Source: Rhizobium sp. ACO-34A (GTDB lineage Bacteria; Pseudomonadota; Alphaproteobacteria; Rhizobiales; Rhizobiaceae). From it: a stretch of DNA of 64,000 nucleotides. This document shows, one piece after another, positions 11,809 to 35,351 of this stretch. Where the stretch lies: positions 389,001 to 453,000 of the forward strand of contig CP021372.1 of NCBI GenBank assembly GCA_002600635.1. The letters run 5' to 3'. Every line of letters begins with the position of its first letter. Position 1 is the first letter of the stretch. Under the pieces are notes generated by a model. The model was not told the origin of the DNA and ran no database searches. It saw nothing but the letters and a program-made list of their open reading frames with translations. The translations under genes were made by a program, and so were the position numbers.

Positions 11809-12327
11809 TCAGACGTGAACGTATTTTCTGTCGACGTAGACCAGGCCGCGTCCGTCAGAGCTCTTGCGAACAGCGGTCACCTTGCAGATCAGGATATCGT
11901 GACTTCCCGCTTCGAGGATGCTGCCGACCTTGCAATCGAAGGAGGCGACGGCGTTTTCGAGCGCCGGCGAGCCGGTTTCGAGCAATGACCATTCGCCGAG
12001 TTTGAAACGCTCAGACATTGGTGTCTTGCCGCCAAAGAGGCGGCCGATATCTTCATGGTCGCTTTTCAGCACGTTGACGCAGAGCACACGATTGGCGCTG
12101 ACGGCAGGATAGGCCGAAGAACTGCGGTTGATGCAGACGAGAAGAGTGGGCGGCGCGTCGCTGACGCTGCAGACAGCGGTTGCCGCAAAGCCCGCGACCC
12201 CGGCGGGACCGTCTGTTGTGACGATATTGACGGCAGCACCGAGCCTCGCCATCGCATCGCGAAACAGGAGCCTGCTGTCTTCAGCAGGTGCGAATCCGTT
12301 GTTTTCGACAAAGGGCATTTTTTGCAT
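11809..12327 (-). CDS. rutF: RutF flavin reductase
   Basis: NADH:FMN reductase that supplies reduced FMN to the RutA oxygenase. The flavin-reductase-like domain covers nearly all of the 172 residues: [51 protein letters not shown] and [15 protein letters not shown] 12327 follows a GGAG site; a second ATG at 12318 (MPFVENN) is also plausible, and the ORF start at 12366 overlaps rutE without support. It is the sixth gene of the rutABCDEF series, 23 bases after rutE. Confidence 0.85.
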
Positions 12328-12350
12328 GGGGGCGGACTCCAACAGAGAGG

Positions 12351-12941
12351 TCAAGCGAGGATGCATGCCTCTTCGAACGACAGACGTGGCAGGCGGTCGA
12401 ACAGTTTCGATCGATCCCCGTGTCCAAGGTTGATGAGGAAATTTGATTTCCAGGTCGTGCCGGCAAAGAACGCCTCGTCAACTTTCGTCTTGTCGAAGCC
12501 GGACATCGGCCCTGCGTCGAGGCCGCGGGCGCGTGCCGCGAGGATCAGATAGGCAGCTTGCAGACAGGAATTGCGAAAGGCTGTCTCTTCGGCCAGCGTA
12601 GCGCTGGAAGTGAACCATGATCGCGCGTCGCCGTGAGGGAACAGCGCCGGCAGCTTGTCGTAGAAGGCCACGTCATAGGCTGCGATCACCGTAACCGGTG
12701 CAGTCATGGTCTTTTCCAGATTGCCTGAGGAGAGGGCGGGCCGCAGCTTTTCCTTGCCCTCTGCCGTGCGCACGAACACGAAACGCGCCGGCGAGCAATT
12801 GGCCGAGGTCGGTCCCATTCTGGCAAGCACATAGATATCTTCGAGCTCCCCGTCCGTCACGGACCGGTCGGTCCAGCCGTTATGGGTACGGGCTTCACGG
12901 AACAGGAGGTCGAGGGCGTCGTCATCGAGGATATTGGGCAA
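12351..12941 (-). CDS. rutE: RutE malonic semialdehyde reductase (nitroreductase fold)
   Basis: A 196-residue protein, the normal RutE length. Its nitroreductase-like FMN fold is thought to reduce malonic semialdehyde to 3-hydroxypropionate. Recognisable segments are [71 protein letters not shown] and LINLGHGD. It lies 12 bases after the rutD stop, inside the operon. Confidence 0.9.
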
Positions 12942-12953
12942 GGTTCGCTGCTT

Positions 12954-13733
12954 TCAAATGTGCTGTTCAAGGAACGCCAGGACATCGGCGTTGAAAGTGT
13001 CGGGCGCAGTGACGTTGACGGCATGACCACCGAAATCGGTCAGCGTCAGGAGAGCATTTGCCAGCCTTTCCGCCAGGCGCTGAGAACGTGTGAAAGGAAC
13101 AAGGAGATCATCGCGCGTAGCTGCGATCAGCGTGGGCGTCATGATCTCGTTCACGCGATCGTCGATGTCGAAGGCACGAAGCGCGGAAATCCGCTTGAGG
13201 AGATTGTGCTCGCCCTGGAAATGCACGAGGCCATGCGCCTCTTCCGCTGCGAGGCGTTCGGCATTCTCGGACATCCAGACCGCTGGGTAGAGAAATAGCG
13301 GCTGAGCTTTCAGGAAGGCGGCGACACCGGCCTTCTCGAGCAAGTTGAGGCGGACGTCAAAGCAGCGCTCCGTGTGCGGATCGACCTTCGACCAGGCATT
13401 CACGAGAACGAGCGAGGAAAGCAACTCCGGCCGTCGCAGGGTGAGGTCGAGACCGACAAGGCCGCCGAGTGCATGGCCCATGAAATGAAACCGGTCGAGC
13501 TTCAGGCGATCGGCGATCTCCAGCACGTCGTCCGCCATATCGGCGATGCGATAGCTGTCTGGAAGCGCACCACCGGTATGGCCCGTCCCTCGATGATCAT
13601 AGATGACAACGCACATGGAGGCCGCAAGCGTGTCGATCTGTGGCAGCCAATAGGCTCCGGCACCGCCAAGCCCGGACGAGAGGATGATTGTCGGCGCATC
13701 GTCTGCCTGCCGGCCATGGACTTCGTAATACAT
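12954..13733 (-). CDS. rutD: RutD alpha/beta hydrolase
   Basis: Alpha/beta-hydrolase-fold protein of about 259 residues, assigned to accelerate aminoacrylate hydrolysis in the Rut pathway. The start MYYEVHG at 13733 is 10 bases after rutC; an upstream frame to 13787 overlaps rutC and is not supported. The oxyanion/lid region reads ILSSGLGGAGAYWLPQ, with QPLFLYPAVWM and FQGEHNLLKR also typical of RutD. The nucleophile elbow is FMGHALGGLVG: Ala replaces the usual Ser. As I recall E. coli RutD has GHALGA in the same place, so this looks like a family trait and not damage. The late GGHAVNVTAP supplies the His. Confidence 0.9.
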   Translation of the reverse strand: MYYEVHGRQADDAPTIILSSGLGGAGAYWLPQIDTLAASMCVVIYDHRGTGHTGGALPDSYRIADMADDVLEIADRLKLDRFHFMGHALGGLVGLDLTLRRPELLSSLVLVNAWSKVDPHTERCFDVRLNLLEKAGVAAFLKAQPLFLYPAVWMSENAERLAAEEAHGLVHFQGEHNLLKRISALRAFDIDDRVNEIMTPTLIAATRDDLLVPFTRSQRLAERLANALLTLTDFGGHAVNVTAPDTFNADVLAFLEQHI

Positions 13734-13743
13734 GGTGCCAGCG

Positions 13744-14130
13744 CTACTTGCCAATATGTGCGACGGTCGCGATCTCGACCAGCGCATCGGGCTTGACCAG
13801 ACCGCACTGAACGCAGTAGCGCGCCGGCTTGTCGCCCGGGAAATATTCCGCGTAGACAGCGTTGATGGCTTGATAGTTCGCCCAGTCGGTAAGGAAGATA
13901 TGGTTCATCGTCACGTCCTGCATCGTACCGCCGGCCGTTTCGATCACAGATTTGATGATGTCGAGCACGTGGCGGGTCTGGGCGGACGCGTCGCCGACAT
14001 GGACGACATTGTTGTCCTTGTCGAAGGGCAGCGTGCCCGAGACATAGACGACGCCATCGGCGAGTGTTCCCGGGGAATAGGGGGCGAGCGGCTTGCCGGA
14101 ACCGGCGGGCACGACAATGGTCTTGGGCAT
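13744..14130 (-). CDS. rutC: RutC aminoacrylate deaminase (RidA/YjgF family)
   Basis: A 128-residue RidA-fold enzyme that deaminates 3-aminoacrylate. The start at 14130 ([20 protein letters not shown]) has AAAGGAG 9 bases upstream. [60 protein letters not shown] and [11 protein letters not shown] match the family, with the conserved Arg in PARYCVQ and a C-terminal Glu in LVEIA. It is tightly placed between rutB and rutD. Confidence 0.92.
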
Positions 14131-14156: not shown

Positions 14157-14900
14157 TTACTCTTCGACGGGCGCGGCCTGCCCGATGGCGCCGCAGAAAT
14201 CGTTGACGGTCGATACCCAGCCGAAGAACTTCTCGACATTGTAGACCGTCGCCTGCTGCATGAAGGCGGGGCCGAGATGGCGGGTCGCGTCCTCCAGCAT
14301 CACGCCGAAATATTCGAGATGGAAGGCGTCTCGCAGCGAGCTTTCGACGCAGACATTGGTGGCGATCCCAACGAAGACGAGGTTGCGGATGCCGCGGGCG
14401 CGCAGCACGCTGTCCATGTTGGTGTTGAAGAAGCCGGAGTAACGGGTCTTGGGCACCAGAATGTCGCCCGGCTGCGGGTGAAGTTCGTCGACGATGGCGT
14501 AGTCCCACGTGCCCTTGGCGAGCAGCGAACCCTGAAGCTCGGGATTGGCGCGCATGTGCTTCAGCGCGTTGGACTTGTGCCAGTTCGGCGAGCCGGTGCC
14601 GCCAGCCTCGACATAGTCCTTGTCCCAGCCGTTCTGGAAATAGACGACAAGGACGCCGGCGGCGCGCGCCGCCTCCACCGTCTTGCGGATGTTGTCGATG
14701 GTTCCCTTGGCGCCGGAAATGTCGAAGCCGGCGAGATCGACATAGCCGCCCTCGGTCGAATAGGCATTCTGCATGTCGACCACGACCACGGCCGTTTCGC
14801 TGGGCTTGAGCGTGATCGGCTCCGGCCGGGCAGGCAGCGTTATGGTGTTCAGTTTCTCCGGCCGGGCCTGGTAGCCGGCTGTGATGACCGGGCCGCTCAT
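14157..14900 (-). CDS. rutB: RutB (peroxy)ureidoacrylate amidohydrolase
   Basis: Isochorismatase-fold amidohydrolase of 247 residues that splits ureidoacrylate, releasing carbamate and aminoacrylate. The cysteine-hydrolase triad is visible: Asp42 in [10 protein letters not shown], Lys151 in [11 protein letters not shown] and Cys184 in [14 protein letters not shown]. The N-terminal extension [20 protein letters not shown] is typical of RutB. ATG 14900 overlaps the rutA stop by 4 bases (ATGA), indicating translational coupling. Confidence 0.93.
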
Positions 14901-15988
14901 TCTGCCGCCTCCAGGCTGGCAACGACATGCTGGCGGCTCTTCATCAGCGGCTGCACGTATTGGCCGAACTTGTCCACGCCCTCCAGGAAGTCGTCGAAGG
15001 TGAGCATGACGCCGCCGGTGCCGGGGACCCCGGCCATTTCGTCGAGCATCGCCGCGACTTCCTCGAACGAACCGATCAGCGTGCCCATGTTGATGTTCAC
15101 GGCTGAAACCGGGCTCGACATGTGCCGGACATTGGTGTCCGACCCCGACTTGGTGTCGGCGGCGCTCTGCAGGCCGAGCCACTTGATCGCCTCCTCGTCG
15201 GCCCCGGACTTGTAGAGTTCCCACTTTGCCCAAGCGTCTTCGGAATTCGCCTCGGCGATCACCATGGTCAGCACGAAGGAGCGTACGTCACGTCCGGTCT
15301 TTTCGGTTGCCGCCAGCAGGCGCTCATTGGTCGGGGCGAAGGCCGTGGGCGTGTTCACGCCGACACCGAAGCAGAAGCTGTAGTCGGCAAATTGTGCCGA
15401 GAAGGCCATGCCGGCATTTGAGGACCCTGCGCAGATCAGTTTCACCTCACCCTGCGGAACTGGCTTCATCCGGCAATCGTCCATATGGAAATACTGCCCG
15501 TCGAAATCGGACTGGCCGGTTGTCAGCAATTCCTTGAGCACGGTCGTGTATTCCGCAAGATACGTGTAGCGGTCGCCGAAATACTCGTCGCCCGGCCACA
15601 TTCCCATCTGCGAATATTCCGGGCGCTGCCAGCCGGTGACGAGATTGACACCGAAGCGGCCGCCGGAAATGCTGTCGATCGTCGTCGCCATGCGCGCCAC
15701 GATGGCCGGTGGCATCAGAAGCGTTGCCGAGGTACCGAAGAGCTTGATCTTCGACGTGACGGCAGCCAGTCCCGCCATCAGCGTGAAGGATTCGAGATTG
15801 TAGTCCCAGAATTCAGTCTTGCCGCCGAACCCGCGCAGCTTGATCATCGAAAGCGCGAAATCGAAGCCGTACTTCTCGGCCTTCAGCGTAATCGCCTTGC
15901 TGAGTTCGAAACTCGGCTTGTACTGCGGGGCCGTCTCCGAAATGAGCCAGCCGTTGTTGCCGATCGGAATGAATATGCCAATTTCCAT
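14897..15988 (-). CDS. rutA: RutA pyrimidine monooxygenase
   Basis: FMN-dependent oxygenase of the bacterial-luciferase-like family (363 residues, the usual size). It opens the uracil ring between N3 and C4. It begins [20 protein letters not shown], a signature RutA N-terminus, and contains [20 protein letters not shown] and [20 protein letters not shown], typical of the substrate/flavin pocket. It is first gene of the rut operon; the promoter lies in the 400-base divergent interval 15989-16388, which holds two LysR-type boxes. No RutR-type TetR gene or RutG permease gene is in the window. Confidence 0.93.
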
Positions 15989-16150
15989 AGTTCTGTTCCC
16001 CGGAACTGTCGATTGAACTGATTTTTAAACCGCTGCCAATGCGAGAGGATCGGCCGCCGGACTATGCCCTGAGTGGAGGCATCGTTGCTGTTGCGGTGAT
16101 CAATTCATGAAAATGGCGTTGCGATAAAGAACAATTTTTCGACAATGCAA

Positions 16151-16165
16151 TTGCCGAAAAGGCAA
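16151..16165. promoter_or_regulatory. LysR-type box TTGCC-N5-GGCAA (rutA side)
   Basis: TTGCCGAAAAGGCAA is a perfect 5-bp-arm palindrome in the T-N11-A format used by LysR regulators. It lies 163 bases upstream of rutA in the rutA/importer divergent interval. The same motif appears at 16275 and 27271. The likely regulator is the LysR gene at 22479-23402 in the importer operon. Confidence 0.6.
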
Positions 16166-16274
16166 CAAGAGCGGTCTGCACCCGATTAGCGATAGCTCGC
16201 AGATCTGGATTCGCCGGTAACAAATTTTAGGCTGGATGCTGTTTTTTTGCTCTTCTAGGCATCTGGTGGCCGCG

Positions 16275-16289
16275 TTGCTAATTCGGCAA
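16275..16289. promoter_or_regulatory. second LysR-type box (importer side)
   Basis: TTGCTAATTCGGCAA matches TTGCC-N5-GGCAA with one mismatch (TTGCT). It is 100 bases before the substrate-binding protein gene. Two boxes 124 bases apart in one divergent interval would suit a LysR protein controlling both directions. The rest of 15989-16388 shows no gene. Confidence 0.5.
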
Positions 16290-16388
16290 TCCAAGCCACT
16301 AAAAATTATTCTTTATGCGAACGCATGGTTCAGCGATGATCGCCGTGATGAAGGTTCTTCGGCTCGTCAAAATAAAAGGGGAAATGAA

Positions 16389-17420
16389 ATGTCGGATTTT
16401 GTGATGAACAGGCGCGGTTTCATGAGAACCGCCGCCGTCGGCGGCGTTGCGGCGACACAGACCTTTCTTTCGGTTCGCCCGGGTTCTGCGGCAGCGCCGG
16501 CGAAAATTCGCATGCAGCTCGGCTGGCTCGCTTCGAACGGCCTCCTCGGTGAAGTGGTCGCCACCAAGAAGGGCTTTTATGCCGAACAGGGGCTCGATCT
16601 TGAGATTGTGCCGGGCGGACCGAACGTGGATGGTGTCGCCGGCGTTGCTGCCGGCCAGTCCGCGATCGGGCAGATCTCGTCGAGCCCCTCCGTCATGCTC
16701 GCCCGCGGTGCGGGGATGCCGGTGAAGGCCATCGCTGCCGGCTACCAGAAACATCCCTATGCCTATTATTCCCTCAAGGCAAAGCCCGTCCGGTCGGCTC
16801 AGGACATGATCGGCAAAACGGTCGCCATCCAGCCGACGGGCGCCATTTTGCTTCGTGCGCTGCTCGCCAAGAACGGCGTTCCGGAAGACCAGGTTAAGGT
16901 GGTCAACATGGGCGCCGACATGAACCAGCTGATGACCGGGCAGGCCGACGTTGTCGTTGGCTGGATCACCAATACAAATGCGCTGAAGGTTCTCGGCGAG
17001 GATCGCGTCGACCTGATGCTGTGGGACACTGGCATTCAGCTCTACGCGAACGTCTACTACACGACGGATAGCGAGCTTGCCGATCATTCCAGGGAGCTGG
17101 CTGGGTTCGTCGCCGCCACCGCAAAGGGATGGGGCTACGCCCGCGACAATCAGGAAGAGGCCGTCAATATCCTTGTCGAGGCTTATCCGAACCTCGACAA
17201 GGCGAGTGAGCTGGAAACGATCGGTCCGCTGATGAAGTTCGCCTTCAACGAAACGACGAAGGCCGATGGCTGGGGCACCATGTCAACGGATAACTGGGCT
17301 GCGCAGATCAAGACCTATGCCGATCTTGGTCAGTTCAAAGAAAAGGTTCCGACGGTTGACGAGGTCATGACCCTTTCTGTTCTCGATGCGACCAGTGATG
17401 CTCGCAAGCAAGTGGGGTGA
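16389..17420 (+). CDS. ABC importer substrate-binding protein, NMT1/SsuA-like
   Basis: Periplasmic binding protein of 343 residues. ATG 16389 follows AAGGGGAAATGA; the longer frame from 16236 runs through the regulatory interval. A twin-arginine-like signal, MNRRGFMRTAAVGGVAATQT, precedes the mature part. Family features are KIRMQLGWLASNGLLGEVVA, TKKGFYAEQGLDLEIVPGGP, QISSSPSVMLARGAGMPVKA and IGKTVAIQPTGAILL. NMT1/THI5 and SsuA relatives bind thiamine-pyrimidine precursors, riboflavin, pyrimidines, sulfonates or nitrate. Next to rut genes that lack RutG, an uptake role for a pyrimidine-like ring is the natural inference. Confidence 0.85.
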   Translation: MSDFVMNRRGFMRTAAVGGVAATQTFLSVRPGSAAAPAKIRMQLGWLASNGLLGEVVATKKGFYAEQGLDLEIVPGGPNVDGVAGVAAGQSAIGQISSSPSVMLARGAGMPVKAIAAGYQKHPYAYYSLKAKPVRSAQDMIGKTVAIQPTGAILLRALLAKNGVPEDQVKVVNMGADMNQLMTGQADVVVGWITNTNALKVLGEDRVDLMLWDTGIQLYANVYYTTDSELADHSRELAGFVAATAKGWGYARDNQEEAVNILVEAYPNLDKASELETIGPLMKFAFNETTKADGWGTMSTDNWAAQIKTYADLGQFKEKVPTVDEVMTLSVLDATSDARKQVG

Positions 17421-17425
17421 TCGTC

Positions 17426-18235
17426 ATGCCCATTGCTCTCGAAAAACCTCCCGTCTCTCCAACGGCCAGCGACAGCACGGCCGTCTCCGTCAACAAGCTC
17501 CACATCCGTTTCGGCAAGGACGGTTCCGAGTTTACCGCCCTGCAGGATGTTTCCGTGCAGATTCCGGAGGGCGCGCTGGTGACGATGCTCGGCCCTTCCG
17601 GCTGCGGTAAATCGACTCTTCTGCGCTGCGTGGCCGATCTGGTCCATATCAGTGACGGTTCCGTCTCAGTCCTTGGTCAGACGCCTCGCAAGGCGCGTGA
17701 AGGGCGTGATTTCGCGTTTGTCTTCCAGGAGGCGACGCTGTTGCCCTGGCGCTCGGCCATCGACAATGTGCGGCTGCCGATGGAAGTCGGCAAGCGTGAG
17801 CCTGGCACCACCTTTGCCGACCCGGCCGAGCTTCTGGAACTTGTCGGGTTGAAGGGGCGTGAAAAGGCGTTGCCCCATGAACTGTCGGGCGGGCAGCGTC
17901 AACGCGTCGCCATTGCACGGGCGTTGGTGACGCGTCCGAGAATTCTGCTGATGGACGAGCCTTTCGGGGCACTCGACGAGATCACCCGCGACAAGCTCAA
18001 CGAGGAACTCCTGCGCCTATGGCAGGAGACGGGAACGACGATCCTGTTCGTCACCCATTCCATTCCGGAAGCTGTTTTCCTCGGCCAGCACGTCCTCATG
18101 CTTGCCGCTCATCCGGGCAGGGTGAAGGAATTCATGAAGATCGATCTGCCGCATCCGCGATCGCTCGCGATGCGTGACACCGTGGAGTTCATCCGGATTA
18201 CCGCACACCTGCGTGCCCTGCTGGAGGAATGCTGA
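17426..18235 (+). CDS. ABC importer ATPase (SsuB/TauB-like)
   Basis: Nucleotide-binding subunit of 269 residues. Walker A is GPSGCGKST (about 56-64), the Q-loop is FVFQEATLLPW, the signature is LSGGQRQRVAIARALV, Walker B is ILLMDEPFGALDE, and the H-loop is FVTHSIPEA. These match the nitrate/sulfonate/taurine importer class, consistent with the binding protein. ATG 17426 is preferred; a GTG at 17417 that overlaps the previous stop is the alternative. The permease gene follows with a TGATG overlap. Confidence 0.9.
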   Translation: MPIALEKPPVSPTASDSTAVSVNKLHIRFGKDGSEFTALQDVSVQIPEGALVTMLGPSGCGKSTLLRCVADLVHISDGSVSVLGQTPRKAREGRDFAFVFQEATLLPWRSAIDNVRLPMEVGKREPGTTFADPAELLELVGLKGREKALPHELSGGQRQRVAIARALVTRPRILLMDEPFGALDEITRDKLNEELLRLWQETGTTILFVTHSIPEAVFLGQHVLMLAAHPGRVKEFMKIDLPHPRSLAMRDTVEFIRITAHLRALLEEC

Positions 18236-19071
18236 TGACCGGTTCCGTACAATCCGTGGAAACCAATGCGCCGGTACATGCCGTGAAGAAGGCCGCGACA
18301 GCCAATGCTGTGTTCGGTCCGATCGCGGATAATCTGCCTGCGATCCTGGCGATCGGCAGCTGCGTCGTGCTCTGGCAGCTCATCGTCTGGGGGTTCTCGA
18401 TCCCGACCTATATGGCACCCAGCCCGATTGCCGTGCTTTTCGCCTTTCGCGACAATGCTGCCATCCTGTGGTCCAATCTTTTGCCAACGCTCATGGAGGC
18501 CGCGCTCGGCTTCCTGTTCGGCAACCTCGTCGCGGTGTTGCTTGCGGTGTGGTTCGTCTACAGTCCGCTGGCCGAGAAGGCCCTTTACCCGATTGCCGTC
18601 ATCATCAAGTCGATCCCGATCATCGCTCTTGCGCCGATCCTCGTGCTTCTCGTGGGCAATGGCGTGGCGCCGAAGATCATCATCGCCGGTCTGATCTGTT
18701 TCTTTCCGACATTGGTGAACATGGTGCAGGGTCTTAAGGCGGCAAGCCCGGCGATGCTCGATCTGATGAGGGTGCTGTCGGCAAGCAATTCTGAAATCTT
18801 CTGGAAGGTGCGGTTGCCGGCATCGCTGCCGTTCCTGTTCGCGGCCCTGAAGATCGCCGCGACCAGCAGCGTCATGGGCGCCATCGTTGCCGAGTGGATC
18901 GGATCGAGCTTCGGTCTCGGCGCACTCATCATCGAGGCCACCTATAATTTTCGTTCTCCGTTGCTTTACGCAACCGTGGTGATCGCGGCGGCGCTCGCAG
19001 TGATCCTCTTCTTCGCGGTCTCTTTTGCAGAGAAGAAGGTGATCCGGTGGAAGCCCACCGCCCACGACTGA
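18235..19071 (+). CDS. ABC importer permease (SsuC-like)
   Basis: Inner-membrane permease of about 278 residues with six or so hydrophobic segments, including ILAIGSCVVLWQLIVWGF, LGFLFGNLVAVLLAVWFVY and IAVIIKSIPIIALAPILVLL. The cytoplasmic coupling (EAA-like) loop is MRVLSASNSEIFWKVRLPAS. ATG 18235 overlaps the ATPase stop by one base, with GGAGGA 6 bases upstream; an ATG at 18229 lies too close to that site. It completes the importer with the two preceding genes. Confidence 0.88.
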   Translation: MTGSVQSVETNAPVHAVKKAATANAVFGPIADNLPAILAIGSCVVLWQLIVWGFSIPTYMAPSPIAVLFAFRDNAAILWSNLLPTLMEAALGFLFGNLVAVLLAVWFVYSPLAEKALYPIAVIIKSIPIIALAPILVLLVGNGVAPKIIIAGLICFFPTLVNMVQGLKAASPAMLDLMRVLSASNSEIFWKVRLPASLPFLFAALKIAATSSVMGAIVAEWIGSSFGLGALIIEATYNFRSPLLYATVVIAAALAVILFFAVSFAEKKVIRWKPTAHD

Positions 19072-19153
19072 CTTCCCCATATGCAAATCCTGCGACGCGG
19101 CGGAACCGTTGCGCCGCAGGCATTCCATCCGTCCGTCCAAGGAGAAAAACACG

Positions 19154-20512
19154 ATGAACAATACAATCAGAATACCGGAAGGACACGCCAGGATCGTCGA
19201 CCGTTCCGATGTGGTCGTCGTCGGGGGAGGGCCGGCAGGGATATCGGCGGCAGTCTCGGCGGCGCGCAACGGTGCAAGCGTCACTCTCGTGGAGCGCTAT
19301 CCCTATGTCGGCGGGCTTGCGGCGGGCGGCATGGTGCTCGTTCTCGATGATATGGTGAATGGCCTTGAGATCACAGTTCAGGGCATCTGCACCGAGATGA
19401 TCGAACGCATGCGCAGCAAGAATCTCTGTGTCGTACCCGACGAAAACGACCGCCAGCTCGATGTCAGGGATCTGCCCGAAAGCTGGCAGCGCTGGGCGCG
19501 CTGGGGGCTTTTCGATTTTCACACGCCCTCTGCTCCGCATCCGATTTGCTACGCCGCCGCTTTTGATCCGGATGCGTTCAAGCAGACCGCCTATGACCTG
19601 TTCGCCGAGGCTCGCGTCAAGCTGAGAACTCACAGCTGGTTCTCTTCCGCCATCGTCGAGGACGGCACGATCAAGGGCGTCGTCTGCCAGACGAAGGAAG
19701 GTCCGCAGGCAATCATGGGCAGTGTCGTGATCGACGCCACGGGCGATCTCGACGTGGCTTCGAATGCGGGCGCCGCCTGTGTCGAAGACAGCTTCATCCT
19801 CACCACGGTGTCGCGCTGGGGCGGGGTGGATACGGTGGCAGCGGAACGGTTCGAGTTCGAGGAGCCGGAACGGTTTAAAGTCCTCGACCACGAGGCCAAG
19901 CGATTGCTGGGCGGCTGCTGGGCTTACTGGTGGCTGAAAACGCCGCTTCCGGGTGTCGTTTGGCTGAACTGCCCGCACATGCCGAAGCTTTCCGGGCTGA
20001 AGGTCGAGGATCTCACCGCGGCCGAACTTGAGGGGCGGGCGCGTATGGGGCGGTTGCTCGACTTTGCGCGCGAAAAGCTTCCCGGTTTCGAGAATGCCTA
20101 TGTGGTCGATTTCGCTCCACAGACCGGCGTGCGCCAGACCCGCATGCTTCAGGGGGACTATGTCGTCACGAAGGACGATGTGATGAGCCGCCGTCATTTC
20201 GCCGATACCGTCTGCCGTGGCCGCGATTACTACACGCCGTACCGGGCGCTGCTGCCGAAGGAGATCGATCAGCTTCTCGTGGCCGGCCGGCATTATTCGG
20301 CAACGCCGCAGGCACAGAAGTCGAGCCGCGAAATCCCGCCCTGCATGGCCATGGGCGAGGCGGCGGGCGTTGCCGCAACCGTGGCGCTTAACGCCGGCAC
20401 CACCGTTCGCAAGGCCGACGTCAAGGCAATTCAGAAACAGATGCGGGCACAAGGCGCCGATCCCGGCGATATCCCGTCCGCCAATGCAAGCTACCTGGAG
20501 GCAGCAGAATGA
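19154..20512 (+). CDS. FAD-dependent oxidoreductase
   Basis: A 452-residue flavoprotein. The N-terminal dinucleotide fold is VVVVGGGPAGISAAVSAARN with the ribose-binding Glu in VTLVERYPYVGG. It also has VVIDATGDLDVASNAGAACV, a motif of the 'FAD-dependent oxidoreductase' group (PF12831 type), and a C-terminal FAD loop IPPCMAMGEAAGVAATVAL. Related proteins oxidise or dehydrogenate small organic acids or act on unusual ring compounds; the substrate here is unknown. ATG 19154 follows AAGGAGA. The stop overlaps the CoA-transferase start by 4 bases, so it belongs to the importer operon. Confidence 0.75.
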   Translation: MNNTIRIPEGHARIVDRSDVVVVGGGPAGISAAVSAARNGASVTLVERYPYVGGLAAGGMVLVLDDMVNGLEITVQGICTEMIERMRSKNLCVVPDENDRQLDVRDLPESWQRWARWGLFDFHTPSAPHPICYAAAFDPDAFKQTAYDLFAEARVKLRTHSWFSSAIVEDGTIKGVVCQTKEGPQAIMGSVVIDATGDLDVASNAGAACVEDSFILTTVSRWGGVDTVAAERFEFEEPERFKVLDHEAKRLLGGCWAYWWLKTPLPGVVWLNCPHMPKLSGLKVEDLTAAELEGRARMGRLLDFAREKLPGFENAYVVDFAPQTGVRQTRMLQGDYVVTKDDVMSRRHFADTVCRGRDYYTPYRALLPKEIDQLLVAGRHYSATPQAQKSSREIPPCMAMGEAAGVAATVALNAGTTVRKADVKAIQKQMRAQGADPGDIPSANASYLEAAE

Positions 20513-21666
20513 CGACCCTTCCCCTTTCCGGTATCCGCGTGGTCGATTTCACGCAGGTCATGCTCGGACCATGCTGCACGCAGATGCTGGCCGACTACGG
20601 TGCCGACGTTATCAAGGTGGAGAAGGAAAAGACTGGCGATCTTTCCCGCTGGTCGCTCGGCTCCGACCCCGACGGACTGAACAATCCGGTTTTCTGCTCG
20701 CTCAATCGCAACAAGAAGAGCCTTGCTCTCGACCTCAAGCACGAGGACGCCCGCGCTGCCGTTATGGCTCTGATCGACGGAGCGGATGTTGTCGTCAACA
20801 ATTTCCGGCCGGGTGTGATGGAGCGCATGGGTTTCGGCTACGATGACCTTAAGGCACGCAATCCCCGGCTCATCTACGCCGTCGGAACGGGTTTCGGCCT
20901 CACCGGTCCCTATCAGCACAAGGGTGGGCAGGATGTTCTGGCCCAGGCACTTTCCGGGGTCATGAGGCGCAAGTCCGATGCCAGCCATCCGCTGGCGATC
21001 TTTGCCACGCCGCTTGCCGACTTCTCCGCCGGCATGCATCTCGTCCAGGGTATTCTCCTTGCGCTTCTGCATCGGGAAAAGACCGGCGAAGGCCAGCAGG
21101 TTGCCGTCAATCTCTATTCCTCCATGCTCGCCATGCAGATGCAGGAAGGAACGGTCCAGATGATGCGCAACAAGGAACTCAACTGGGGTGCCTTTCCGCT
21201 GACCGGGGTGTTCGAAACCACGGATGGCGCCATCGTCATGGTCGGCGCCTTCAAGCCGAATCCCCTGCGCGACATTTGCGCGGCGCTGGAAATCGAAGAT
21301 CTTTCCGCGCTGCCGCGTTACGCCGATTTCGACACCCAGATGGCGCACCGGCCGGAGCTTCAGGCTGTCTTCCGGGAAAACTTCGCGAAGAACACCACAG
21401 CCCACTGGATCGAAAGGCTGGAGGGTGTCGATATCCTGTGTGCGCCGGTTCGTTCCATCGGTGAGGCGCTGGAGGACGAGCAGACCGCCATCAACAGGAT
21501 GATCCTGGAGGCCGGGGAGACGGATGCAGGCCCGATCCGGCTGATTGGCTCACCTATCGAAATGTCGGCGGCCGAGGTGACGGTACGCTTGCCGCCGCCG
21601 CATCTCGGCGAGCACAACGACGAAATTCTCGGGGCCGCCGCCGCGAAGCGGGGGAACGCGGCATGA
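20509..21666 (+). CDS. class III (CaiB/BaiF) CoA-transferase
   Basis: Transfers CoA between carboxylic acids, or activates one in a catabolic path. The 385-residue protein begins LPLSGIRVVDFTQVMLGPCC and has TQMLADYGADVIKVEKEKTG and FCSLNRNKKSLALDLKHEDA. The predicted catalytic Asp171 lies in FATPLADFSAGMHLVQGILL, followed by LLHREKTGEGQQVAVNLYSS. It overlaps both neighbours by 4 bases, which argues for coupled translation with the FAD oxidoreductase and enoyl-CoA hydratase. Substrate is unknown. Confidence 0.85.
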   Translation: MTTLPLSGIRVVDFTQVMLGPCCTQMLADYGADVIKVEKEKTGDLSRWSLGSDPDGLNNPVFCSLNRNKKSLALDLKHEDARAAVMALIDGADVVVNNFRPGVMERMGFGYDDLKARNPRLIYAVGTGFGLTGPYQHKGGQDVLAQALSGVMRRKSDASHPLAIFATPLADFSAGMHLVQGILLALLHREKTGEGQQVAVNLYSSMLAMQMQEGTVQMMRNKELNWGAFPLTGVFETTDGAIVMVGAFKPNPLRDICAALEIEDLSALPRYADFDTQMAHRPELQAVFRENFAKNTTAHWIERLEGVDILCAPVRSIGEALEDEQTAINRMILEAGETDAGPIRLIGSPIEMSAAEVTVRLPPPHLGEHNDEILGAAAAKRGNAA

Positions 21667-22436
21667 GCGTCGAATTCGAAGTCGTCGACCGCATTGCCCG
21701 TGTCACGCTCAACCGACCCGAGCGGATGAACGCCGTCGATGCCGCGACGGAACGGGCGCTGGAGGCGATCTGGCGGGAGATCGAGGAGCGGGACGATGTG
21801 AGTTGCGTGGTCCTGACAGGCGCGGGCGCAAAGGCATTCTGCGCCGGGGCGGATATGAAGGGCGTTGACAAGTCCGGTGTCGATTACTGGGCGGAGAGCC
21901 GTCCGAACGGCTTCGGTGGTCTCTCCTTCCGACGCTCGCTCGACGTGCCCGTCATTGCCAGGGTCAACGGCTTTGCGCTGGGTGGCGGTTTTGAACTTGT
22001 TCTCGGATGCGACATCGTGATTGCCTCCGAGAACGCCCGTTTCGGCCTGCCGGAAGCGCGGGTCGGACGCATGCCGCTGGATGGCGGTATGGTAATGCTC
22101 CAGCGCAAGATTCCCTTTAACCGTGCTATGGCGGTGCTGATGACCGGAAAGCAGTTCAACGCGCGGGAAATGTTCGAATTCGGCATCGTCAATGAAGTCG
22201 TGCCAGCCGAACAGCTCGATGAAGTCGTGGATCGCTGGGTTGCAGAGATCATCGCGTGTGCGCCGCTGTCGCTGCGGGCCATCAAGCAGACCGTGAACCG
22301 CACCGGTCACCTTTCTCCGGCCGAGGCGCAGTCGCTCAAGACGCCAGCGCTCATCAGGGCGCTGCAAAGCGAGGATGCCGTTGAGGGTGTCGCGGCCTTT
22401 CAGCAAAAGCGCGCACCCGTCTGGAGAGGTCGGTGA
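21663..22436 (+). CDS. enoyl-CoA hydratase/isomerase family protein
   Basis: Crotonase-fold enzyme of 257 residues. The CoA/oxyanion-hole segments are CAGADMKGV and GFALGGGFEL. Both acidic residues used by true hydratases are present: Glu in GGGFELVLGCD and Glu in GLPEARVGRMPL. Hydration of an enoyl-CoA made from the CoA-transferase product is the simplest reading. It overlaps the CoA-transferase gene by 4 bases. Confidence 0.85.
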   Translation: MSVEFEVVDRIARVTLNRPERMNAVDAATERALEAIWREIEERDDVSCVVLTGAGAKAFCAGADMKGVDKSGVDYWAESRPNGFGGLSFRRSLDVPVIARVNGFALGGGFELVLGCDIVIASENARFGLPEARVGRMPLDGGMVMLQRKIPFNRAMAVLMTGKQFNAREMFEFGIVNEVVPAEQLDEVVDRWVAEIIACAPLSLRAIKQTVNRTGHLSPAEAQSLKTPALIRALQSEDAVEGVAAFQQKRAPVWRGR

Positions 22437-22478
22437 GCGTGCGCTAAAAGGGGAAATGACTCGAACCGGGGAGACCAC

Positions 22479-23402
22479 ATGCATGCCAGCATCCTGAAAT
22501 ATTTCGCGGCCGTGGCTCGAACGGGTTCGATACGCAAGGCTTCGGACGAGTTGCATGTGGCGACCTCCGCCCTCAGCCGTCAGATCAAGAAGCTGGAAGA
22601 GGAACTGGGCATTACGCTGTTCGAACGCTTCTCCAACGGTCTGCGCCTGACGGTTGCCGGCGAGGAGGTCTTGCGGCATGCGAAGGCAACGCTCAGGGAG
22701 TACGAACTGCTGCGCAGCGATTTGGGTGCGATGCAGGGCAAGAAGACCGGGCGTGTCCGGATAGCCTGCCTGGACAGCCTGACCCTGAAATTCCTTCCTG
22801 ATCAGATCCGGGCGTTTCATCGGCTGAATCCTGCCGTGAGCTTTCATGTCCAAACGGCGGGACACGGGCATGTAACGGACTATGTCGCGGAGGGGGACGT
22901 CGATATCGGCATTACCTTCGATCTCGCCCGTCCCGACGACACTGAAATGGTGTTTCGGGTGCCCATGCCCCTGATGGCCTGTGTTGGCAAATCGCACCCC
23001 TTGGCGAAACATAAGAAAGTCTCCCTGACCCAATGCTCACAGTTCAATCTGCTGCTGCAACTGGACACGCAACCGATCCGCTCCCTTATTGAGATCGAGC
23101 TATCGGCATTCGAGCGAACGGGACGCTCCTTCATCGTTTCGAACAGCCAAATGATGCTGAAGCCATTCATCATGGCGGGAGACGGGGTCGCCTTCTTCAC
23201 GCATATGGGCTTCATGGAAGAGATCCGTTCGGGCGAGATCGTCGCGCTGCCGCTTTCGGGTTCCCGATTGCAAAGCCTGCATATCGGCATACTTGTTCAG
23301 AAGCGCCGCCAGCTCACTCATGCCGCCGAAGCTGTCATCGAGATGTTCAGCCGCGAACTTCAAAAGTACAGCGATACGATCAACGAGGTCATTCACAATT
23401 GA
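22479..23402 (+). CDS. LysR-family transcriptional regulator
   Basis: A 307-residue LysR protein. The N-terminal winged helix-turn-helix is ILKYFAAVARTGSIRKASDE then LHVATSALSRQIKKLEEELG, with FERFSNGLRLTVAGEEVLRH after it. A periplasmic-binding-like effector domain follows. It lies within the importer/CoA operon, 42 bases after the hydratase gene, unlike the usual divergent LysR position. TTGCC-N5-GGCAA boxes before rutA, the importer and the ferredoxin gene make it the best candidate for regulating all three; that link is inferred. Confidence 0.85.
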   Translation: MHASILKYFAAVARTGSIRKASDELHVATSALSRQIKKLEEELGITLFERFSNGLRLTVAGEEVLRHAKATLREYELLRSDLGAMQGKKTGRVRIACLDSLTLKFLPDQIRAFHRLNPAVSFHVQTAGHGHVTDYVAEGDVDIGITFDLARPDDTEMVFRVPMPLMACVGKSHPLAKHKKVSLTQCSQFNLLLQLDTQPIRSLIEIELSAFERTGRSFIVSNSQMMLKPFIMAGDGVAFFTHMGFMEEIRSGEIVALPLSGSRLQSLHIGILVQKRRQLTHAAEAVIEMFSRELQKYSDTINEVIHN

Positions 23403-24796
23403 ACCCGAATACCACGGACATTCGCTTTTTACCGAGGCCGGGCCACGCGCCTGCATTGAGGGGTGTCGCCTGCAAGGATAGCCTGCCCGTCGAGATCGAG
23501 TGGGGTTCGTTAACGCCCGGCGACCTCGTGATGCCCGCTCCGGTCAATGCGCATGACCATGGCTACGGCATCCGCACGCTTGATTTCGGTGGCCTCGACG
23601 ATGCTCTCGAAGTCTGGATTCCTACCCTGCGTCTCAGGCCGCGAACCGATCCCTATCTGGAAGCGCTGGTCGCCTTTTCACGCCTGGCGCTGACCGGCGC
23701 CGGGGCGACGATGCATTGTCATAATTCCCTGAATATCGACCGTCTCGCGGATGAGGCCGCAGCCGTCATCCGGGCCGCGTCCGAGGTCGGCATCCGGCTG
23801 GGTCTGTCCTGCCCGCTGCTCGATTTCGACCCCTGGGCGTATGATGGCGGGCCGGAGCGTCTGCGTCCCTTTCTCTCGCCGGACAACTGGGCGGCGCTTG
23901 CGCCGACGATCCCCCGTTACGCGCCGCCCGCCCGCCAGATCGAAGCGGTGCGGCAGGTGATGGTGGAAAACAGCAATCCCCTGGTCGAGGTGCAGTTCGG
24001 CCCGATCGGGCCGCAATGGTGTTCGAACGCGCTTCTTGAGGCGATTGCTGAGGCTTCCGCCGAAGATGGGCGGCGCATCCACATGCACCTGCTCGAAAGC
24101 CCGCGTCAGCGTCATTGGCTGGACCGGCGCTTTCCTCAAGGCGTCGTCCGCTACCTCGACCAAATCGGCTTCCTGTCACCGCGTCTTGCTGTTGCCCACG
24201 GCGTACAACTGCGCGAGGACGAACTTGAGCTTCTGGCTGAACGCGGGGTGCAGGTCGTTTCCAATCTGTCCGCCAACCTGCGGCTGCGCTCGGGTGTGGC
24301 GCCGCTGTCTGAAATGGCGCGCGGCGGGCCGGAATTCGCGATTGGGCTGGATGGCACTGGATTCGATGACGATCAGGATATCTGGCGTGAACTCAGGCTC
24401 GCCTATCTTCTTCACGGCGGCCGGGATGTTGTCCGAAACTTTCCGGCGGCGGGCATTTTCGACGCCGCGATCAGCGTCGGCGCCAAGGTCGTCGGCAGGC
24501 CCGAGGCGCGGGATTACGTGACCATCGACTATGCGGCCCTGACGACTGACAGCCTTTTCGACGATCTCGATGAGGCGGCGGTGCTGCTCGCCAGGATGAA
24601 TGCTTCTCATGTCAAGGGATTGGTTGTCGGCGGCAGGCAGATCCTGCGCGAGCGACATCTGACTGGGGTTGACTTCGAAGCGGCTCGCCACGCCCTGCTT
24701 GAGCAGGCTCGGAGCGATCTGCCGCGTCTGCGCGAAGAGCGTCCGCGTGTGAAAGCGCTCGCCGAGGCAACGCGCCGTTATTACGCGGGATGGTGA
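23399..24796 (+). CDS. metal-dependent amidohydrolase
   Basis: Amidohydrolase-superfamily enzyme of about 465 residues. Metal-binding motifs are in order: HxH in VNAHDHG, a mid-chain His in IHMHLLESPRQ, His in VAHGVQL, and the Asp in IGLDGTGFDDDQ. The layout resembles cytosine deaminase and related ring hydrolases or deaminases. The start is uncertain: a TTG at 23399 overlaps the LysR stop and has GAGG about 10 bases upstream; the first ATG, at 23531, would remove the N-terminal strand region. It is the last gene of the importer operon, before a terminator hairpin. Hydrolysis of a cyclic amide is plausible in this context but unproven. Confidence 0.75.
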   Translation: MNPNTTDIRFLPRPGHAPALRGVACKDSLPVEIEWGSLTPGDLVMPAPVNAHDHGYGIRTLDFGGLDDALEVWIPTLRLRPRTDPYLEALVAFSRLALTGAGATMHCHNSLNIDRLADEAAAVIRAASEVGIRLGLSCPLLDFDPWAYDGGPERLRPFLSPDNWAALAPTIPRYAPPARQIEAVRQVMVENSNPLVEVQFGPIGPQWCSNALLEAIAEASAEDGRRIHMHLLESPRQRHWLDRRFPQGVVRYLDQIGFLSPRLAVAHGVQLREDELELLAERGVQVVSNLSANLRLRSGVAPLSEMARGGPEFAIGLDGTGFDDDQDIWRELRLAYLLHGGRDVVRNFPAAGIFDAAISVGAKVVGRPEARDYVTIDYAALTTDSLFDDLDEAAVLLARMNASHVKGLVVGGRQILRERHLTGVDFEAARHALLEQARSDLPRLREERPRVKALAEATRRYYAGW

Positions 24797-24853
24797 TCGT
24801 TCCGGAATGAGTATGTGCAAACGGCTGGTTTTGCGACTAAATCCACGAGGGTT

Positions 24854-24884
24854 ACAGCCCGGAGATGGAACGCTTCCGGGCTGT
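24854..24884. terminator. terminator hairpin between convergent operons
   Basis: ACAGCCCGGA, an 11-base loop, then TCCGGGCTGT: a perfect 10-bp stem between the amidohydrolase stop (24796) and the DapA-like stop (24902). The placement fits a shared terminator for the two converging operons. Confidence 0.65.
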
Positions 24885-24901
24885 ATTCGGCCTGAAGGCG
24901 A

Positions 24902-25828
24902 TTACAGCGCGGCACGCTTGTCGTGTCTGGCGATCCGAGTGAGTAGGTAGTCGACCTCCGACCTGGCGGTGGCGCTCAGCATCTGGGCGGGCTTACGCTG
25001 GACGTCCGAGGCGATCACGCCGCGGCGCTTCAGGACATGCTTGCGCACGGCAAGACCGACGCCAGACTGTTGCTCGTAGCGGATCAGCGGCAAGTGTGCG
25101 TCGAACAGATCGTGGGCCTCATCGCGCCTGCCGGCGGCAAACAGGGAGACCAGTTCCGCCAGCATGTCAGGAAAGCCGTATCCGGTCATCGCGCCGTCGG
25201 CGCCCCGTTCCGGTTCGAAATCGAGGAACATTCCACCATTGCCGCAAAGGATCGAGAACGCGCGTAGTTCACCGGATTTCTGCATGGCGCGCAGCTTCGA
25301 GATTTTCTCCAGCCCCGGCCAGTCCTCGTGCTTCAGCATCTGGCAGGACGGATGATTGGAGATCACTCTGGCGACGACGCTGGGCGACATCACCACTGTC
25401 AATGTCAGGGGGTAATCCTGCAACACCCATGGCACGTCCTCGCCGACCGCCTCGACCGCGCCGGCAAAGTAGCTGACGATCTGGTCGTCGGTGCGTAGCG
25501 CCGGGGGTGGGGCAATCATCACGCCGGCCGCTCCAATGTCCATGGAATCGCGTGCCAGCGATCGCATGCCGGCGAAACCCGGCGAAGAGACGCCGACGAT
25601 GATCGGCACTTTGGCGCGCGAGACGACACGCCTGACGATGGCGCGGCTTTCCTCCGGTTCCATTTTCGGCGCCTCACCCATGATGCCGAGTATGGTAATG
25701 CCGTCGCAACCACTTTCCTCATAGAAATCCGTCAGTCGATCAACCGATGTAAAGTCGATGGACCCGTCCTCAAGGAAAGGCGTGGTTGCGATCGCATAGA
25801 CGCCCTTTGATTGGGTGTTGAATGTCAT
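24902..25828 (-). CDS. dihydrodipicolinate synthase (DapA)-family lyase/dehydratase
   Basis: TIM-barrel Schiff-base enzyme of 308 residues. Lys166 in CQMLKHEDWPGL is the predicted Schiff-base lysine, Tyr139 is in VLQDYPLT, and the GTTGE-type loop reads GIMGEAPKM. Catabolic members include 2-keto-3-deoxy-sugar-acid dehydratases and hydroxyproline-path deaminases, which produce alpha-ketoglutarate semialdehyde. The KGSA-type dehydrogenase at 10214-11725 could use such a product, though the two genes are in different operons. It is last gene of the ferredoxin-SDR-DapA operon. Confidence 0.8.
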   Translation of the reverse strand: MTFNTQSKGVYAIATTPFLEDGSIDFTSVDRLTDFYEESGCDGITILGIMGEAPKMEPEESRAIVRRVVSRAKVPIIVGVSSPGFAGMRSLARDSMDIGAAGVMIAPPPALRTDDQIVSYFAGAVEAVGEDVPWVLQDYPLTLTVVMSPSVVARVISNHPSCQMLKHEDWPGLEKISKLRAMQKSGELRAFSILCGNGGMFLDFEPERGADGAMTGYGFPDMLAELVSLFAAGRRDEAHDLFDAHLPLIRYEQQSGVGLAVRKHVLKRRGVIASDVQRKPAQMLSATARSEVDYLLTRIARHDKRAAL

Positions 25829-25888
25829 TGTTTTCTCCCAGATGTGGCTATGGACCCGGTCGAGCCGCAGTTTTAGTGATGCCGCCGT

Positions 25889-26674
25889 TCAGATATTGGC
25901 GAGAAGCCCGCCATCGATGCGGATGACTGAGCCGGTGATGTAGGATGCCCGCGGACTGACCAGAAACGCGACCGCATCGCCGTATTCGCGAGGGTCCCCA
26001 TAGCGTCCCACAGGGATTGAGGCGGTGCTTTCCGCCGTGACGTCGGCCACCGGACGATTTTCGCGGCTGGCTTTCTGCTCATCGAGAAAGACGATGCGGC
26101 CGGTGGCAATCCGGCCCGGCAGCACGATGTTAGCAGTAACGCCGCTACGGCCAACTTCTCGGGCGAGCGTTTTTGACCAGCCCAGGAGGGCAAGTCTGAG
26201 ACTGTTGGAGATACCGAGATTGGGGATTGGCGCCACGACGCCCGATGAAGTTGAGGTGATGATGCGTCCCCAGCCACGTTCGCGCATCGACGGCAGTACC
26301 GCATCCGTCACGGCGATCACCGAGCGAACCATGCTGTCGAAATACTGCGACCACATTTCCGGCGCTTGCCCTCCGGCCGTTGTCGGGGGTGGGCCGCCGG
26401 TGTTGTTGACGAGAATATCCACCGGTCCGAATGTGGAACCAATGAGCGCAAGCCGTTCCGCGATCACCGAAAGATCACTGATGTCCCATTGAAGAGCCAA
26501 TGCAATCTGGCCGGTCGCTTTGATAGTGCGCGCTGTCTGTTCAGCGGCAGCCTGATCTATGTCTGCGACGATGACGTTTGCGTTTTCTGAGGCAAGGGCG
26601 TTAGCAATTGCGCTTCCCAGCCCGCCGCCAGCGCCAAATACCAGCGCCGTCTTTCCGTTCAATTGGAGATCCAT
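25889..26674 (-). CDS. SDR-family protein lacking the canonical YxxxK
   Basis: Short-chain dehydrogenase/reductase of 261 residues. The NAD(P)-binding motif is VFGAGGGLGSAIA, the acidic cofactor residue is in VIVADIDQ, and the NNxG motif is ILVNNTGGP. The catalytic Ser region is IITSTSSGVVAPIPN. Where YxxxK is expected the sequence is NLGISNSLRLAL, so the Tyr and Lys are both replaced (about residues 153-162). Some SDR subgroups share this SNxxR pattern. Activity may therefore differ from classical oxidoreduction. ATG 26674 follows GGAG-type sequence poorly but begins the conserved MDLQLNGKTALV; the longer frame to 26755 adds nothing family-like. Confidence 0.78.
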   Translation of the reverse strand: MDLQLNGKTALVFGAGGGLGSAIANALASENANVIVADIDQAAAEQTARTIKATGQIALALQWDISDLSVIAERLALIGSTFGPVDILVNNTGGPPPTTAGGQAPEMWSQYFDSMVRSVIAVTDAVLPSMRERGWGRIITSTSSGVVAPIPNLGISNSLRLALLGWSKTLAREVGRSGVTANIVLPGRIATGRIVFLDEQKASRENRPVADVTAESTASIPVGRYGDPREYGDAVAFLVSPRASYITGSVIRIDGGLLANI

Positions 26675-26818
26675 GAAACCCTGCTTTTGCGTTTCGGTAT
26701 TGTTGATTCGGCGGCCACCGCAGCTGCGATCGACAGAAAGGTTGCCGACTACCATTGCCGCTTGGTTAGCTACGGGGAGAAATGCCGAAGCGCTCCATCA
26801 CGACTTTGTCCTTCGAGA

Positions 26819-27163
26819 TCAGGAGTGTGAAACGGCTGTCGGCCTATCGAACGCAGTTACGAAAGGATGATCCATTTCAATGATCGTGCCGCGCGCCCAC
26901 CCCCCGGGCGAACCAAGGCCCGTCACGGAGGATTCGAAGAATTCCCTGTTAACGTTGACGAAGACATGCCGGTCCTCTGGAACTTCTTCATCCCAGATGA
27001 TGGCGTCGACCGGACAGATTGAAAGGCACAGGCCGCAATTGATGCACTCATCAGGATGAATGTAGAACATCCGCGTGCCCTCGTAGATGCAGTCGACCGG
27101 ACAGGCGGCGGTGCAGGCGCCATCTTTGATGTCGATGCAGGGAAATGTGATGACATAGGCCAT
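26819..27163 (-). CDS. FdxA-type ferredoxin with two iron-sulfur sites
   Basis: A 114-residue electron carrier beginning MAYVITFPCIDIKDGACTAA. Eight cysteines at 9, 17, 21, 25, 40, 43, 46 and 50 form the pattern of a 7Fe or 8Fe ferredoxin: CPVDCIYEGT, then HPDECINCGLCLSICPVDAI. The start at 27163 is set by this conserved N-terminus; the frame is open to 27244. It is the first gene of a minus-strand operon with the SDR and DapA-like genes (144-base gap to SDR). A perfect TTGCC-N5-GGCAA box lies about 108 bases upstream. It could pass electrons to one of the oxidoreductases here; the partner is unknown. Confidence 0.82.
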   Translation of the reverse strand: MAYVITFPCIDIKDGACTAACPVDCIYEGTRMFYIHPDECINCGLCLSICPVDAIIWDEEVPEDRHVFVNVNREFFESSVTGLGSPGGWARGTIIEMDHPFVTAFDRPTAVSHS

Positions 27164-27270
27164 CCGGGCAGCCTCCTTCCAGAATATGGGAAACCGGAGG
27201 CAGATTGCCTCCGGCAGATTTTTTCCCAGAAATCCGCGTCGCAAGGAAGTTCAGAGTTTCGCTTGAGTGA

Positions 27271-27285
27271 TTGCCGATAAGGCAA
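27271..27285. promoter_or_regulatory. LysR-type box upstream of the ferredoxin operon
   Basis: TTGCCGATAAGGCAA is a perfect palindrome, differing from the box at 16151 by one base in the spacer. It lies between the alcohol dehydrogenase gene and the ferredoxin start. The shared motif suggests that this operon and the rut/importer pair answer to the same LysR protein. Confidence 0.6.
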
Positions 27286-27416
27286 CACTAACCGAGCGCT
27301 CCGGTGCGCTCCGCAATAGCAGACAATCGTCTCGACATCTGAATCCCGGAACACGACCGGGCGGAGCGTGACCGGCCGAGCTTCCCGATTCAATGTCGGC
27401 TTTTCATCATGTTTTT

Positions 27417-29500: not shown

Positions 29501-29510
29501 GGGCTAGTCC

Positions 29511-34416: not shown

Positions 34417-34448
34417 TCCGTCAGTTTGTGGAATAAAAGGAGAGATTA

Positions 34449-35300: not shown

Positions 35301-35351
35301 CGGTTCGCGGCGTGGGGAGCGCCGTGAACTTTCAACAAGGGACTGGAGACA

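Follow-up and report, generated by a model that had tools for sequence, protein, structure and literature searches.

A candidate LysR-type regulon with the rut operon as a likely member in Rhizobium sp. ACO-34A

We analysed a stretch of 64,000 nucleotides (the window) from a 517 kb contig of Rhizobium sp. ACO-34A, a member of the Rhizobiaceae with a genome of 6.28 Mb. Very probably, a LysR-type regulator encoded in this stretch (22479..23402, plus strand) activates three transcription units, each preceded by a two-part promoter of the same pattern: a rut operon for uracil breakdown, an operon with an ATP-binding cassette (ABC) importer and coenzyme A (CoA) enzymes, and a ferredoxin operon. The original prediction had proposed such a regulon from copies of the palindrome TTGCC-N5-GGCAA, with the LysR gene in its middle and rut as a member. 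Promoter conservation, a promoter matrix, a genome search and coupling to the LysR gene now argue for this proposal at the level of sequence. The regulon as such appears well supported, and control of rut by it seems likely.

Three promoter elements of one pattern

The predicted palindromes were all found, as perfect copies at 16151-16165 and 27271-27285 and with one mismatch at 16275-16289. By itself, this palindrome says little. The window contains four matches with at most one mismatch against 3.2 expected, a number reached by 37 of 100 shuffled sequences, and the whole genome contains 36 perfect copies against 12 of the reversed control pattern. Counting palindromes was therefore rejected as evidence. 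The 33 perfect copies outside the window all lie within open frames of at least 122 amino acids, which are common in such DNA and no proof of a gene. An additional perfect copy in the window, missed by the original prediction, lies at 42465-42479 inside a permease frame (42035-43039) and was not among the places picked by the promoter matrix in the window scan.

The three sites are significant because of a conserved flank of 37 base pairs (bp) beside each palindrome, which is visible only by comparison with relatives. We built a 55-bp promoter matrix from 53 sites of other genomes, leaving the window out. Its best match in the window is the rut promoter element (16114..16168, minus strand; 59.8 bits), with the palindrome at 16151-16165 and the second half-site at about 16116-16141. 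It is followed by the element of the ABC/CoA operon (16272..16326, plus strand; 57.9 bits; palindrome 16275-16289, second half-site about 16299-16324) and that of the ferredoxin operon (27234..27288, minus strand; 50.2 bits; palindrome 27271-27285, second half-site about 27236-27261). The next-best score in the window was -10.1 bits, and the maximum in six order-1 random sequences of 2 Mb (12 Mb, one strand each) was 4.2 bits. When the 37 bp were scored without the palindrome, the same three places ranked first to third (35.2, 34.5 and 23.3 bits; next 9.0 bits). A calibrated model of 32 foreign sites, comprising 31 of the 53 matrix sites and one Ensifer-type dehydrogenase promoter, gave rough E-values of 3.6e-12 (rut), 3.8e-9 (ABC/CoA) and 1.1e-8 (ferredoxin); searched over the whole genome, it returned only these three elements, with the next match at E 0.14.

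The original prediction had named a motif common at random positions as grounds for its own refutation. This holds for the bare palindrome but not for the full 55-bp promoter, of which the genome search found three sites only. The unenriched count of the bare palindrome in the window might suggest chance copies. For the three 55-bp elements, however, chance is refuted by conservation across loci, matrix scores, genome E-values and the low maximum in random sequence, which makes this explanation extremely improbable.

As predicted, the palindromes occupy promoter positions: 16275 precedes the likely start codon at 16389 by 114 bp, 27285 precedes that at 27163 by 122 bp, and 16151 is 162 bp away from the rutA start (15988) and faces rutA. 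The assignment of 16151 and 16275 needs correction, however. They are not two marks of one promoter; 16151 serves rut on the minus strand and 16275 the ABC operon on the plus strand. Alternatively, 16151 might assist the ABC/CoA operon as an auxiliary operator and be unrelated to rut. It sits 238 bp upstream of the likely start of that operon, and two palindromes also occur in Ensifer-type regions. Yet the second half-site of 16151 is present in the rut orientation only (35.2 bits, against -41.7 bits forward), and the second Ensifer palindrome likewise belongs to a divergent gene, so that we regard an auxiliary operator as very improbable. The orientation of the element also rules out 16151 as the promoter of the ABC operon. 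In sequence, the rut promoter most resembles promoters of the binding-protein type, with which it shares up to 43 of 55 positions; with the other two promoters of the window it shares 36 and 35 of 55, and it is not clearly copied from either.

Promoter conservation and coupling to the LysR gene

Regulon loci were drawn from species genomes with an alignment of 20 LysR proteins (that of the window and 19 relatives), and the best 80 of 180 qualifying stretches were used. Four loci per promoter class had no gene or not enough sequence, leaving 77 readable loci for each promoter, the window included. Within 300 bp before the start codon, the perfect palindrome was present upstream of the importer's binding-protein gene in 66 of 77 loci (73 with at most one mismatch; the window's own perfect copy in this set is the 16151 site) and upstream of the ferredoxin gene in 60 of 77 (66 with at most one mismatch). 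Its distance to the start was mostly 128-143 bp and 86-108 bp, respectively. Among all 5-base inverted repeats with gaps of 0-12, TTGCC-N5-GGCAA ranked first in both promoter sets, and 29 controls with permuted arms averaged 0.03 loci. As a side observation, the palindrome of one locus (L013, 1501-1515) lies within TATTTTTTGCCAAGACGGCAAAAAATA and resembles a terminator hairpin more than an operator.

Alignment on the palindrome revealed a second conserved block, which starts 9 bp further on in both promoter classes and reads CGAAaATTGTTCTTTAT..GAACGC in the binding-protein promoters. The spacing from the palindrome to CTT is 21 bp in both classes and in the rut element. In 37 of the 77 binding-protein regions the second block contains the palindrome GTTCT-N5-AGAAC, whose centre lies 33 bp from that of the first palindrome. 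LysR-type regulators usually combine a recognition site with an activation site, a layout matched by these two blocks, and their sites are typically T-N11-A inverted repeats. A conserved T-N11-A inverted repeat indeed lies upstream of the targets, with a second site at a fixed helical phase and probably near -35. The regulator itself has the winged-helix HTH_1 domain (PF00126) and the LysR substrate domain (PF03466) of this family.

By analogy with the usual LysR activators, one LysR dimer would sit on TTGCC-N5-GGCAA, and a second dimer about 33 bp (three turns) downstream would shift onto CGAAAATTGTTCTTTAT..GAACGC near -35 when a pathway intermediate binds. The leftward unit would comprise rutABCDEF and an aldehyde dehydrogenase gene, which we infer to be co-transcribed. 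The rightward unit would comprise the importer, flavoprotein and CoA genes together with lysR itself, and the third unit, again leftward, the genes for the ferredoxin, a short-chain dehydrogenase and a dihydrodipicolinate-synthase-family (DapA-like) enzyme. Because lysR lies inside the operon that it would activate, a positive loop is expected. The predicted arrangement resembles textbook LysR catabolic regulons in the T-N11-A inverted repeat, in a further site near -35 that lies about three turns downstream, and in the control of several operons. It differs from them in that the 22479 gene lies inside the activated operon instead of divergent from it.

The promoter and the regulator occur together. 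In 297 genomes of the family, the promoter model matched 49 genomes at E <= 0.01, of which 22 were at <= 1e-8, three near 5e-5 and 24 weaker. A separate search of the same genomes (E <= 1e-70) found the LysR gene in 23, which include all 22 genomes with a strong site, our own among them; the 23rd has a promoter site at E 5e-5. None of the 274 genomes without the LysR gene reached 1e-8, and two reached 1e-4. Within the genus, a close relative of the regulator was found in only one of 59 other genomes (61% identity; next-best match 32%). Two LysR proteins, P0002 and P0003, are 88 and 87% identical to the regulator, and in Rhizobium johnstonii 3841 the orthologues of the lysR and FAD genes are RL_RS29890 and RL_RS29875. 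Moderate sites (E about 5e-5) without a close LysR were seen in two genomes, G229 and G349 (loci L215 and L213), and may represent a diverged variant of the regulon. Three systems that are more distant (L131, L132 and L133) have a LysR gene oriented divergently to the importer; nothing better than a weak and altered site (L131, 11.4 bits) was picked up there by the matrix.

Another regulator might bind these sites, as at least 23 places in the genome are related to the 22479 LysR. Against this, every one of the 22 strong-site genomes has both the promoter and this LysR (a partly circular count), the LysR gene is located inside a unit that carries the promoter, and T-N11-A inverted repeats are LysR-like. 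We consider a different regulator very improbable.

The rut operon and its apparent change of promoter

All six rut genes lie on the minus strand. rutA (14897..15988; TIGR03612, 684.1 bits, cut-off 498.3), rutB (14157..14900; TIGR03614, 433.3 bits, cut-off 377.95), rutC (13744..14130; TIGR03610, 248.4 bits, cut-off 169.1), rutD (12954..13787; TIGR03611, 377.1 bits, cut-off 238.5) and rutE, encoding malonic semialdehyde reductase (12351..12941; NF003768, 314.4 bits, cut-off 152), all exceed their family cut-offs. The rutF-like flavin reductase gene (11809..12366; TIGR03615, 233.8 bits) stays under its cut-off of 254.75. An NADP-type aldehyde dehydrogenase gene (10214..11725, minus strand; best PDB match 3v4c, 801.7 bits) follows 83 bp behind rutF. 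The RutA-RutF families stand in the same order as in the RutR-controlled rutABCDEFG operon of E. coli. In contrast to that operon, the one in the window has no RutR-like box, carries the promoter of another regulator and ends with the aldehyde dehydrogenase. No rutG was found beside it, and no search for rutG was made elsewhere.

The combination of rut with this promoter was seen only in our genome. No rutA was found in any of 75 regulon loci longer than 15 kb, and the promoter is likewise missing from the 51 other rutA-type loci examined, which come from 38 other genomes (maximum -4.5 bits, against 59.8 bits here; the tandem-copy loci of G064 in this sample overlap, and some gave the same copy). 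Among 63 same-genus genomes only our own matched both halves of 15500-16900, where rutA adjoins the binding-protein gene. A search of 72,556 plasmid records gave matches in 166, not one of which extended over 80% of 14900-17400. With membership of rut confined, in this sample, to a single genome, the operon seems to be an addition and not the ancestral core of the route.

Close relatives of this rut operon mostly show a different type of control. Using the RutR motif from general background, we found a RutR-like box with at most three mismatches 110-171 bp upstream in 21 of 28 rutA loci with at least 75% RutA identity (27 of 28 at four mismatches). In 23 more distant homologues there was none at this level and four with four mismatches, and for that reason only the count at three mismatches is telling. 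Upstream of the rutA of the window no such box was found, the best match having five mismatches. The genome still has a gene for a RutR-like regulator (243.7 bits, against a cut-off of 368), and a match of this kind is also present in all 35 other same-genus genomes searched. One genome, G302, apparently represents the state before the switch: its two promoter sites (E 4.6e-10 and 0.0016) share a contig, and a rutA with a RutR-like box is located on a different one. The start of the G302 binding protein resembles that of the Rhizobium rhizoryzae protein. Judged from these comparisons, rut appears to have moved into the LysR regulon, presumably losing RutR-type control as it gained the LysR-type promoter. 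If so, the operon would have changed regulators in an unusually clear-cut way, its close orthologues being mostly under a RutR-like box and the operon here under the complete promoter of another regulon.

Elsewhere, aldehyde dehydrogenases belong to the regulon. In nine Ensifer-type loci (L049-L057) a divergent promoter element is present, and seven of these have the start of an aldehyde-dehydrogenase-like frame behind it; two more such starts were read besides. Hence, rut and the dehydrogenase seem to fill a slot that the regulon uses elsewhere. The Ensifer enzyme scores 548.7 bits as the alpha-ketoglutaric semialdehyde type, against a cut-off of 770. Possibly, then, the leftward promoter belongs to the dehydrogenase at 10214, as in Ensifer, and rut is a mere passenger inserted between the two. 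The equivalent place and same promoter type in Ensifer fit this possibility, as does Streptomyces locus L245, where a dehydrogenase of the window type (43% identity) accompanies the pathway core. However, the dehydrogenases of the window and of the Ensifer-type loci are only 27-28% identical, and the rut genes all look intact and come first in the unit, and would therefore be co-transcribed anyway. We consider a passenger role doubtful. The rut regions of two relatives (13 kb each) matched neither the aldehyde dehydrogenase nor rutE. Beside rut in Rhizobium sp. CC-CFT758 (L241, 15201-18458) and Neorhizobium sp. NCHU2750 (L242, 13018-16247) we noted an NMT1 importer and a YkoF protein.

Several observations weigh against activation of all three units by the 22479 LysR. 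The coupling test is circular in part: the training loci were chosen by this LysR, and the 22 genomes probably include some of their sources. What is independent in it is that strong sites are absent from the 274 genomes without this LysR. The 77 loci are related, and only 53 of 137 sites remain when identity is kept below 85%. Of the 77 regions in each class, four binding-protein regions (L102, L118, L126 and L127) and eleven ferredoxin regions have no site with at most one mismatch. The rut promoter is known from one genome only, and its -10 region appears weak. A sigma-70 consensus scan of 15980-16400 found no promoter, a result of little weight since shuffled sequences yield only 0.7. Finally, the DapA-like and short-chain dehydrogenase genes are no constant companions of the ferredoxin gene: a DapA-like gene follows it in 43 of 74 loci, and short-chain dehydrogenases of the queried types accompany it in none of the 74.

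The candidate pathway and neighbouring genes

The rightward genes between 16389 and 24796 mostly overlap or nearly touch. They encode the binding protein (16389..17420; NMT1/THI5 family, PF09084), ATPase (17417..18235; PF00005) and permease (18229..19071; PF00528) of the importer, an FAD-dependent oxidoreductase (19154..20512; PF12831, 285 bits), a class III CoA-transferase (20509..21666; PF02515), an enoyl-CoA hydratase family enzyme, or crotonase (21663..22436; PF00378), and, behind lysR, a deaminase-like amidohydrolase (23399..24796; PF01979). The best NCBIfam match of the latter, 8-oxoguanine deaminase, reaches 117 bits, far under its cut-off of 532. The leftward ferredoxin operon encodes the ferredoxin (26819..27163; PF00037 and related), the short-chain dehydrogenase (25889..26755; PF13561; true start probably further in) and the DapA-like enzyme (24902..25828; PF00701; 3dz1, 453 bits). 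In Ensifer, copies of the last two (77% and 86%) are grouped apart, together with an RraA-like protein and a LysR of their own, near sugar-acid genes (L130, 5766-9143).

The nearest folds of the binding protein are thiamine-pyrimidine proteins. Its structure model (mean predicted local distance difference test, pLDDT, 65.7) was used for the fold class only, and that of the FAD enzyme (mean pLDDT 40.6) was set aside. Identity to ThiY and THI5 pyrimidine-binding proteins is only 16-24%, and the likeness lies in fold and sequence neighbours. Carnitine-type CaiB/CaiD and ferredoxin systems likewise bring together a class III CoA-transferase, a crotonase and a ferredoxin. They differ in that the flavoprotein here is of PF12831, and the importer, the deaminase-like hydrolase and the DapA-like enzyme have no known counterpart there.

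Most likely, the pathway would involve uptake of a nitrogen heterocycle, deamination, ferredoxin-linked oxidoreduction and processing of a CoA thioester. As a guess from the gene families, an aldehyde would finally be oxidised to 2-oxoglutarate or a similar acid, and Rut would dispose of a pyrimidine ring that is set free or becomes accessible en route. The original prediction suggested that the substrate may be an N-heterocycle different from uracil. The pyrimidine-type importer and the deaminase-like hydrolase make this plausible, though not more than that; a thiamine-type pyrimidine would be a guess. A more specific proposal, which we offer tentatively and regard as rather unlikely, is that the regulon encodes a hitherto undescribed route via CoA thioesters that acts on a pyrimidine such as that of thiamine. 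It would start with uptake of the ThiY type and deamination, continue with flavoprotein chemistry linked to ferredoxin and with CoA transfer and hydration, and end with a DapA-like lyase and an aldehyde dehydrogenase yielding 2-oxoglutarate. The whole Rut machinery would have been recruited to a non-uracil ring in this strain by the promoter swap. The promoter could serve as a practical handle on a widespread pathway, as it points to the pathway genes in any genome that encodes this LysR. The connection with rut also indicates substrates for a first trial. The literature searched, mostly titles and opening parts of abstracts and including RutR literature such as PMC5343134, gave no account of the regulon or the pathway in these parts. 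A literature search for the motif letters together with LysR returned only an unrelated match.

Frames of transposase and integrase type border the stretch from rut to the permeases. A partial IS110-family transposase (8624-9355) matches positions 109-342 of 343 and adjoins a shikimate-dehydrogenase-like frame (9451-10101) that matches only the C-terminal half of its family models. On the other side lies an rve-type, weakly IS481-like integrase (30465-31445). This stretch may be a mobile or assembled island; the composition profile showed no sharp island border. Directly upstream of the ferredoxin promoter, a zinc alcohol dehydrogenase and two BPD_transp_2 permeases (27417-30374, minus strand) have no regulon site of their own in the matrix scan. 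Further on, genes of glyoxalase/dioxygenase type, for a fumarylacetoacetate hydrolase and for an FAD_binding_3 protein stand in a row (33577-37010) and look like an aromatic ring-cleavage operon.

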